From an uncultured Oscillospiraceae bacterium (GTDB lineage: Bacteria > Bacillota > Clostridia > Oscillospirales > Ruminococcaceae), in contig UQGL01000009.1 of assembly GCA_900540595.1 (NCBI GenBank), forward strand, positions 18,961 through 82,960: a DNA stretch of 64,000 nt. The letters run 5' to 3'. Positions 18,913-64,000 of the stretch are shown here, in pieces; position 1 is the stretch's first letter, and each line of letters starts with the position of its first letter. The position numbers were made by a program, and so were the translations under genes. The notes under the pieces were generated by a model. It saw only the letters and a program-made list of their open reading frames with translations. It was not told the origin of the DNA and did no database searches.

Positions 18913-19662
18913 GAGCTGCCTTGATTCTGGCAAGAGCACCTCCCCGTCTCAAATAGATTCGGCACCTTGAAAACTGCATATCCGACAAGCAAGGTACATT
19001 CACCACATTGCCGTCAACTTACGAGTACGGCAGCGCAGACAGAGTACGCGCCATGACTGCCACCGGGCACGAGCGATTCAGTCTCTGGTAAACACCCCGT
19101 GGCGGAGTGGAGCGCAATGACAGATGTGGTCGTAAAGATACTTCCGTCCAGTCATAGTTCACACAATGAGGGCGGCAGGCAGAGAACCTGGCTGGGGTAA
19201 AAATACCCATGATGCCGTTGCAGCCGAACGGCAGCCTTGCAAGTCGTCCCCGCAGCTGGGGCAAAGTGGACAAATGCAGCTGCAAATCGAAAAGTTATCC
19301 CGAAAGTATGCGAAACCGATTCGCGTTTTCCAGTCTAATAAAAGTAGGGAATCAAAACCGTATACTTTCGGGGAATTTATTGCAAGTGAATCAGATTTGA
19401 TTCACTTTCCAGAGCGTAAGGCATAAAAGTGAATCAGTTCTGATTCACTTGCAGTAACCGCCCAAATCCGCCCGGTGTGGGGCGGATGCCCCGCGTCGCA
19501 CACGGACGCGACATCACCCGCAGACCCGCCGTTGGGCGCGTTTGTGGCGCTGTGGGGCGGCGTGAGCCGTACAATTTAACACTAGAGAATAAAACTTACT
19601 ACACACAAAAAGACGATAGTATGAGATAATAGATATATACCAAAACAGAAAGGACGATGCGA
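18913..19662. other. 750-bp non-coding control region of the mobilizable element (possible origin / oriT)
   Basis: No convincing gene is present. The region contains a pair of 24-bp palindromes (19384-19450) and a GC-rich stretch of short inverted repeats (about 19460-19570). An AT-rich run (19570-19650) precedes the RepA-like ATPase gene. In mobilizable elements of this layout, replication and transfer origins usually lie in the space before the rep and mob genes. I could not identify a nic site. Confidence 0.4.
19384..19450. repeat. Two tandem 24-bp palindromes
   Basis: AAGTGAATCA-GATT-TGATTCACTT at 19384-19407 and AAGTGAATCA-GTTC-TGATTCACTT at 19427-19450 have identical 10-bp arms and a 43-bp start-to-start spacing (about four helix turns). 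They look like paired binding sites for a dimeric protein, upstream of the ATPase/mob operon. Confidence 0.7.
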
Positions 19663-61953: not shown

Positions 61954-62099
61954 TGTGACAACCACCTCACCTTTGTTTGAATTTTTACAAAGCGGCGCTA
62001 TTCGCACCTATAGTTACTTTACCATCTGGGAACGGATTAGTCAACGGTAAATTTCGGTAATTTGCGCAAAAAAACAAAAAAGCCGACCTCCGGTAAGCT

Positions 62100-62153
62100 G
62101 TAGGGGTCGATGCTCACATCGACCCGCGGGCGGATGCAAGCATCCGCCCCTAC
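62100..62153. repeat. Intergenic palindrome pair
   Basis: TAGGGGTCGATGCTCACATCGACCC and GGGCGGATGCAAGCATCCGCCCCTA, two hairpins back to back. Same family as those at 58198 and 63830. The gap 61954-62193 holds this plus the mgtE control region and the terminal region of the isomerase transcript. Confidence 0.75.
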
Positions 62154-62193
62154 AACCTGCCGGAAGTCGGCAGTTTTTATTTCACAGCAAAGC

Positions 62194-63509: not shown

Positions 63510-63538
63510 TTGACTTAACCTGCGGTGTGCGGTATAAT
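63510..63538 (+). promoter_or_regulatory. Promoter of small RNA
   Basis: TTGACT (63510-63515), 17 bases, TATAAT (63533-63538). No coding gene follows; the transcript meets a terminator about 100 bases later. Confidence 0.8.
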
Positions 63539-63544
63539 AATAAC

Positions 63545-63643
63545 AGAAAAGGCGCTGCGACAAGCGGTTGGCCCTTTCGGTGAATATGTTAAAAGGTTAG
63601 CCTAATAACCGTCACCTGCCGGGGTGGCGGTTATTGCTTTTTA
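63545..63643 (+). ncRNA. Putative ~100-nt antisense RNA (type I antitoxin candidate)
   Basis: Start inferred from the promoter at 63510-63538. It ends in the hairpin AATAACCGtCACC / GGTGGcGGTTATT followed by GCTTTTT (63604-63642). The 3' end overlaps the last 10 codons of the opposite small ORF (63612-63701). Internally CCTTTCGG (63573-63580) is complementary to CCGAAAGG at the SD of that ORF's mRNA. The 5' part (GGCGCTGC, GCGGTTGGCCC) is also the 5' part of the mRNA leader. Confidence 0.65.
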
Positions 63644-63701
63644 CAACTAAGCTCAAAGTAAAGGTCTTGCGACCGATATAGAACGTAAATGTAAATCGCA
63701 T
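63612..63701 (-). CDS. 29-residue basic peptide (type I toxin candidate)
   Basis: Starts MRFTFTFYIGRKTFTLSL and ends VVKSNNRHPGR. It has an alternating Phe/Thr pattern, a hydrophobic middle and seven basic residues at the end or in the middle. A very strong SD (AAAGGAGGTGAG) lies 6 bases before ATG 63701. It has its own promoter (63786-63814) and a structured leader. The small RNA on the other strand overlaps its 3' end and can pair with the SD. I know no named family for certain. Confidence 0.65.
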   Translation of the reverse strand: MRFTFTFYIGRKTFTLSLVVKSNNRHPGR

Positions 63702-63760
63702 GGTCTCACCTCCTTTCGGGGGTGGGGCCAACCGCCTGCCGTTGTGTGCAGCGCCTTACC

Positions 63761-63780
63761 GCCTGTTGAAACAGGCGGTT
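63761..63780 (-). promoter_or_regulatory. 5' hairpin of the small-peptide mRNA
   Basis: ACCGCCTG-TTTCAA-CAGGCGGT, at the inferred 5' end of the transcript. A 5' hairpin is usual for stable type I toxin mRNAs. Confidence 0.6.
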
Positions 63781-63785
63781 TTTGT

Positions 63786-63814
63786 ATTATAGCAGAAATT
63801 TCGATGGTATGCAA
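63786..63814 (-). promoter_or_regulatory. Promoter of the small-peptide mRNA
   Basis: TTGCAT (63814-63809), 17 bases, TATAAT (63791-63786) on the minus strand. Transcription should start near 63779, giving a leader of about 78 bases. Confidence 0.8.
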
Positions 63815-63829
63815 GAAATTTTGCAGCGA

Positions 63830-64000
63830 TCCGCCGGACGCTGCGGGCGGATATGGAATCCGCCCCTACGGTGTAGGGGGCGATGCTCGTCATCGCCCCG
63901 GAAGCGTTGTGACCGCCGCCATGTGCCGCGGGCGAACAATGTTCGCCCCTACAGCACCCCTTTTGAATTGCATTGTAGGGAGGGGTCTTGACCCCTCCGC
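63830..64000. repeat. Run of intergenic palindromes at the window end
   Basis: Units GGGCGGATATGGAATCCGCCC, GGGGGCGATGCTCGTCATCGCCCC, GGGCGAACAATGTTCGCCC and GGAGGGGTCTTGACCCCTCC follow each other, often bounded by GTAGGG or CCCTAC. Each is self-complementary with a different core. No gene is visible in this stretch. Confidence 0.75.

Follow-up and report, generated by a model that had tools for sequence, protein, structure and literature searches.

A new family of likely type I toxin-antitoxin-like modules in Oscillospirales, with a toxin mRNA predicted to be locked end to end

Two promoters face each other near the end of the stretch of DNA analyzed here (64,000 nucleotides from an uncultured Oscillospiraceae bacterium, hereafter the window), on either side of a gene for a very small peptide. 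This locus raises the question of whether the peptide gene and the RNA transcribed against it form a genuine pair of the type I toxin-antitoxin kind and, if so, how the two RNAs meet. An earlier note on this DNA had proposed a type I architecture wired as in Fst/RNAII. The pair does exist and is one member of a family that occurs mainly in the order of the window. Conservation across this family supports the type I-like architecture, and a type I-like pair is likely; the Fst/RNAII wiring did not hold, given that the proposed SD contact is not conserved, the repeats are inverted, and the terminator suits the antitoxin strand better.

Table 1. Elements of the convergent locus (window positions; antitoxin refers to the antisense RNA)
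Feature	Position	Strand	Basis
Antitoxin −35, TTGACT	63510..63515	+	Promoter scan; promoter conserved in family
Antitoxin −10, TATAAT	63533..63538	+	Promoter scan; promoter conserved in family
Antisense (antitoxin) RNA, about 99 nt, both ends putative	63545..63643	+	Promoter, terminator, predicted fold
Antitoxin terminator hairpin; other strand encodes the peptide's last residues	63603..63636	+	Terminator scan, pair counts
Toxin −35-like hexamer TTGCAT (3/6 versus TTGACA)	63809..63814	-	By eye from sequence
Toxin −10, TATAAT, spacer 17 nt	63786..63791	-	By eye; family score separate
Toxin mRNA 5'-terminal hairpin	63758..63779	-	Hairpin scan and folding
Long-distance helix, 5' arm 1, GGCGCTGC	63748..63755	-	Covariation
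Long-distance helix, 5' arm 2, GGCAGGCGGTTGGCC	63726..63740	-	Covariation and G-U asymmetry
SD-holding hairpin, GAAA apex	63707..63724	-	Predicted accessibility; covariation weak
29-codon ORF MRFTFTFYIGRKTFTLSLVVKSNNRHPGR, putative toxin, SD upstream	63612..63701	-	Family conservation, dN/dS
Long-distance helix, 3' arms (complement of antitoxin 5' module)	63551..63573	-	Covariation, folding
U-rich stretch, putative toxin mRNA 3' terminus	63545..63550	-	T-richness in family
Full-length toxin mRNA, putative, about 233 nt	63547..63779	-	MFE −111.3 kcal/mol, z −9.4

The sequence places an antisense gene over the gene of a small peptide and gives each a promoter, as in type I systems. The plus promoter had been described correctly: its two hexamers, 17 nt apart, match the consensus at 11 of 12 positions. 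The minus-strand ORF with its SD and the plus-strand terminator hairpin overlapping the last codons are likewise present. The minus promoter had been called near consensus, which is overstated for TTGCAT; it was missed by the promoter scan since this hexamer has only three of the six bases of TTGACA. The shared module, GGCGCTGC..GCGGTTGGCC, does lie in place as inverted copies (63551-63573 and 63726-63755) but is better read as the two arms of a helix joining the 5' and 3' ends of the toxin mRNA. The 5'-terminal hairpin of this mRNA is absent from some family members (e.g., L061).

The distribution of the family was explored with a profile of the peptide. At E 0.001, matches were found in 19 of 394 genomes of the order versus 1 of 373 genomes outside it in the class sample. 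In the class sample as a whole, 2 of 391 genomes matched at this threshold, one being the genome nearest to the window, with which it shares 24% of sampled words, and the other lying outside the order. Within the taxonomic family, 9 of 247 genomes matched at E 0.001, weaker matches of that search being mostly noise, and within the genus 6 of 35 did at E 0.01. In the genome G070, eight places reach E 3e-4 or better. When 61 related genomes were searched at the DNA level, 12 matched, several over 22 to 27 bases only. The exact 24-base pattern of the terminator occurs in at least 120 stretches of genome contigs and 22 of viral contigs, and in 3 of the 391 genomes of the class; some of its matches lie in records titled Lachnospiraceae (by title only), and one Polaromonas record matches with neither peptide nor promoter, which looks like chance. 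Among the 185 distinct terminator stretches with enough flank, a peptide was called in 147. This call requires an SD motif and flanks, so that some intact frames are missed. After redundancy was removed, 130 loci with a called peptide were left, and removal of one containing N gave the 129 loci used below.

At the chromosomal site of the window, the flanking gene is present in 34 of 35 genomes and the module in 3 of the 30 loci inspected (up to 900 bases). Elsewhere, five family units stand in tandem on a single contig with a spacing of about 450 bases (L110:397-2205). A tblastn search gave one matching record among plasmids and none among phage records. An 861-kb plasmid record of Vescimonas fastidiosa holds three family places with no feature annotated under the match; one of them (L250:3001-3075) is an unannotated family peptide between a LysR regulator gene and nadE. 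The window peptide had no match in Pfam, NCBIfam, or PADLOC, the window locus had none in Rfam, and PHROGs gave weak matches for L168 only (best E 0.011). Literature searches returned no description of the peptide or the family among the matches listed, so that these searches found the family described nowhere.

The peptides of the 129 loci are 25 to 35 residues long with a mean net charge of +5. They come in two main forms, MR.. (66) and MP.. (48), and mostly end in NRHxxK/R; the stop codon is TGA in all 147 called peptides. In the largest group (46 sequences), the median dN/dS is 0.11 (pS 0.50, pN 0.10), and medians of the other groups range from 0.05 to 0.38. Frame +2 of the largest group gave a pS of 0.11 and a pN of 0.24; these shifted-frame controls use stop-free pairs only, and frame +1 gave none in the two largest groups. 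On these comparisons, purifying selection on the peptide holds up. AlphaFold, run on the 35-residue member L185 with an alignment of 54 sequences, places strands at residues 2 to 9 and 12 to 19 (pLDDT 88 to 89 over the first 20 residues, pTM 0.32), and this member is therefore predicted to be a β-hairpin. A Foldseek comparison yielded nothing useful (best E 4.3). According to PMC8309996, the membrane-associated toxins of type I carry an α-helical membrane segment, and the differing prediction here counts against the type I reading; a figure legend of PMC8309996 also mentions β-sheet in type I toxins, so that a β fold among them may have precedent.

Both promoters recur across the family. The best antitoxin promoter reaches at least 9 of 12 consensus positions in 126 of the 129 loci (mean 11.5 versus 7.0 in shuffled sequence), and the best toxin promoter does so in 96 (mean 9.7 versus 7.0), so by this sequence comparison the convergent arrangement is more than chance. 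The antisense RNA has an estimated length of 85 to 92 nt in the middle half of 127 loci. Its terminator hairpin covaries, with 47 double-change cells versus 13.1 in shuffled alignments, and 99.1% of its cells are standard pairs on the antitoxin strand versus 90.2% on the toxin strand. The G-U cells (48 versus 1) also favor the antitoxin strand, although 41 of them come from a single column with a base set by the stop codon, and this column accounts for most of the strand gap.

Loss of the two genes appears asymmetric. A search for the peptide without reference to the antitoxin gave 67 locus records, which reduce to 54 distinct peptide units, one of them at a contig edge; the antitoxin promoter is kept in 50 of the 53 that could be assessed. 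The three exceptions under the promoter rule include L021, where TTGACA is present with TATACA and was missed by the rule, and L056 and L060, which lack the promoter. L056 (G018:C58) has the peptide and the terminator-side codons with no downstream antitoxin promoter and is possibly a lone toxin or a relic. Among the 38 terminator loci where no peptide was called, 31 keep the antitoxin promoter, 13 of these having a possible peptide remnant; an open family-like frame is found in 4 of the 38, apparently intact in L182 and L197. L006, L117, L200, and others have the antitoxin promoter and terminator with no recognizable peptide and are possibly lone antisense RNAs. Such one-sided loss, in which the antitoxin appears to outlast the peptide, is expected of a toxin and its antidote, and is supportive only since the two locus searches are biased differently; L056, L060, and the four open frames speak against it.

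The second contact proposed in the earlier note, an octamer of the antisense RNA complementary to the SD (CCTTTCGG/CCGAAAGG), is present in the window without being a feature of the family: 1 of 41 aligned loci has it, the window itself. Of the two elements that homologous loci were expected to keep, the peptide frame is conserved and the octamer is lost. Of the three other loci at the chromosomal site of the window, L257 still has the octamer and L255 and L256 do not. Over the 129 loci, the longest SD-to-antitoxin complement was 5.04 with the locus's own partner versus 4.98 with swapped partners, and complements of at least 8 nt occurred in 3 of 129 loci versus 1.6% of swaps. Own and swapped partners thus being alike, the octamer contact was rejected.

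A different contact emerged within the toxin-strand RNA. Both anchors of the alignment were present in 42 of the 129 loci; with L232 left out, these gave alignment A2 of 41 rows. RNAalifold, unprompted, found on both sets a long-distance helix of 23 pairs between the leader of the toxin strand and the stretch complementary to the antisense 5' end. The helix is paired in 95.8% of 942 cells versus at most 53.3% for slid versions, and 14 of its 23 pairs show double changes, amounting to 54 cells versus 13.7 in shuffled alignments (none of 500 as high). Its G-U cells number 131 on the toxin strand versus 9 on the other, or 53 versus 9 once two columns made up mostly or wholly of G-U are set aside. 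Outside A2, G-U pairs are 239 of 2,061 on the toxin strand versus 101 of 1,866 on the other. This asymmetry fits pairing of a toxin-strand RNA, unlike copying at the DNA level. In the window, the full-length RNA folds with −111.3 kcal/mol, and without the 3' arm with −78.5. Past the arm, at least five T occur within 8 nt in 32 of the 41 loci.

The 86 loci outside A2, which include L232 from the earlier 42-locus set, were folded individually. At least 14 helix pairs form in 82 of them, with a median of 25 pairs versus 17 for swapped 3' ends; the swapped ends, although giving fewer pairs, also reach 14 in 64% of trials, as does the antitoxin strand in 78 of the 86. Overall, swapped 3' ends reach 14 pairs in 65.5% of cases, and 116 of 127 loci do so on the antitoxin strand. 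The arms are alike across loci, so that swaps also pair, and this counts against the case for the helix. Even where the module differs from one locus to another, its two copies agree within each. Both copies were found by independent anchors in 75 loci, and identity of their flanks within loci was 255 of 336 versus at most 213 in 1,000 shuffles, in a test of 56 of the 129 loci that kept several misanchored rows, which lowers the signal. Duplex energies (RNAduplex) of a locus's own 3' end beat all 30 swaps in 48 of 129 loci, where 4.2 are expected. Swapped pairs show some of the strand preference too (mean −5.2 of −8.8 kcal/mol), and this share hence reflects column makeup; in the 56-locus test, wobble cells were 38 to 11 for own and 54 to 30 for shuffled pairs. 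Taken together, covariation and folding strongly support a lock of the mRNA from end to end.

The leader can also fold upon itself on the toxin strand, with 95.1% and 95.7% of cells paired and G-U cells of 20 versus 1 and 24 versus 3. This self-fold and the long helix are mutually exclusive, and it resembles the metastable hairpins described for AapA3 (PMC6733600). Next to it, the SD hairpin has a GNRA-like apex in 37 of 41 loci; its covariation is weak. The predicted probability of the SD being unpaired averages 0.036 in 123 loci, versus 0.33 with shuffled upstream sequence (a control drawn from the first 60 loci). It is 0.036 in the nascent, 0.037 in the coding-only, and 0.051 in the full-length RNA. 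With the SD predicted to be hidden in all three forms, the helix would not be needed to hide it, which speaks against the lock reading. The coding-only value also bears on the 3' trimming that opens the mRNA in AapA/IsoA and hok/Sok, since the SD here is predicted to stay covered in that form.

From these observations, we consider it probable that the locus belongs to a new family of type I toxin-antitoxin-like modules, with an mRNA locked end to end. Comparison among loci supports the existence of the family, the reading frame of the peptide, the helix together with the strand on which it forms, and the antitoxin terminator; the transcript ends, the toxicity of the peptide, the fate of the duplex, and any activation of the mRNA are parts that we infer. 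The toxin mRNA would start near 63779 and, since the 3' arm lies beyond the antitoxin terminator, would be transcribed across both the peptide gene and the full length of the antisense gene, ending at the U-rich stretch that faces the start of the antisense RNA. Its leader would pair with its own 3' end over about 23 bp in two arms and so close the mRNA, with the SD kept separately in the local hairpin with the GNRA-like apex; before the 3' end exists, the leader may form a local hairpin instead. An antisense RNA of about 90 nt, made from a promoter stronger than that of the toxin mRNA, would match, as their complement, the last codons and everything 3' of them in the toxin mRNA, the 3' arm included. 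It would most likely pair there, displace the leader, and either mark the toxin mRNA for degradation or keep it silent. A more specific version is offered tentatively, as possible rather than probable: the lock would be a mirror image of known ones, the leader-like 5' end of the antisense RNA competing with the leader for the 3' arm, so that pairing both unlocks the mRNA and tags it for destruction, and the cargo would be a type I-like β-hairpin toxin with no membrane helix.

Our comparison suggests hok/Sok and AapA/IsoA, rather than Fst/RNAII, as the models for how the module works, with the 3' arm covered by the antisense RNA. For Sok, competition with the 3' end over a 5' site is reported (Thisted, 1994), whereas the antisense RNA here would compete with the 5' end over a 3' site. 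The AapA/IsoA toxin mRNA is described as closed by a long-distance interaction of its 5' and 3' ends (PMC6733600, PMC8167048), and covariation and folding point to such an interaction here. The antisense RNA and the several chromosomal copies are further likenesses to this system of Helicobacter pylori, and its transient SD-hiding hairpins with covariation are counted as another (PMC6733600, PMC8167048). In contrast, the long-distance interaction of AapA/IsoA is described as sequestering the SD, which here has a hairpin of its own, and the complementarity of the antisense RNA here takes in the 3' arm. An α-helix is described for AapA1 (PMC8309996), unlike the β-hairpin predicted for L185. TxpA/RatA and the CD-RCd pairs of Clostridioides difficile share the convergent antisense and the long 3' complementarity and are taken to act by RNA degradation (PMC8167048, PMC6563280). 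TxpA has 59 residues and the three CD toxins described there have 50 to 53, with membrane segments, versus 25 to 35 here, and the passages on these pairs in both sources make no mention of a closing 5'-3' helix.

The alternative that the locus is an Fst/RNAII-like convergent system, joined only by a shared bidirectional terminator plus a second contact at the SD, is favored by the convergent promoters and the terminator within the last codons. With par of pAD1 the locus shares the convergent promoters, the small peptide with a charged tail, and an SD-holding 5' hairpin, an SD-sequestering hairpin being also known in RNA I (PMC7472228). However, the SD contact is no better than chance, the repeats are inverted rather than direct, and the conserved pairing extends to the antisense start; the terminator hairpin suits the antitoxin strand better, and on the preferred reading it would not be common to both RNAs. 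The Fst/Ldr signature is described as a transmembrane helix followed by Trp (Val in Fst of pAD1) and a charged tail (PMC7472228). Neither this signature nor direct repeats with an SD-covering contact were found; the window peptide has no Trp and L185 is modeled as strands, so that membership in Fst was rejected and this alternative appears improbable. Even less credence is given to a palindromic mobile repeat whose terminal inverted repeats are matched by DNA-level conversion and whose arms have no RNA function. It would account for the inverted arms and for the multicopy, patchy occurrence, including the sparse occupancy of the window's site, but not for the strand asymmetry of the G-U cells, the conserved promoters outside the arms, or the coding selection on the peptide, on which grounds it was rejected.

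There is, finally, the reading that an antisense RNA silences a peptide harmless to its maker, for example a signal or a weapon aimed at competitors, with no toxin-antitoxin pair involved. The basic character of the peptide and the β-hairpin predicted for a family member are consistent with it, and toxicity is only putative. Against this stand the antisense promoter that persists where no peptide is called, how rarely it is missing next to a peptide (in 3 of 53 units under the promoter rule), and the multicopy genomes and tandem arrays. We regard this reading as unlikely, though one to be taken seriously.

If the preferred reading, a type I-like pair with a locked mRNA, is true, end-to-end mRNA locking, described for hok and AapA, would be carried into Clostridia, where, according to PMC6563280, the characterized type I systems are those of C. 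difficile and the others are predictions. Gut Oscillospiraceae and their relatives would then hold a multicopy family with a covarying mRNA lock, whose more than 100 natural variants would make the question of how the mRNA opens testable. Such genes escape annotation, as in the Vescimonas plasmid record, the one annotated record met. Elsewhere in the window, a pemK RNA of Rfam (RF02913) matches at 19132-19212 on the plus strand with 54.8 bits, above the gathering score, and the intergenic stretches at 62080-62175 and 63830-63985 are GC rich and repeat-like.
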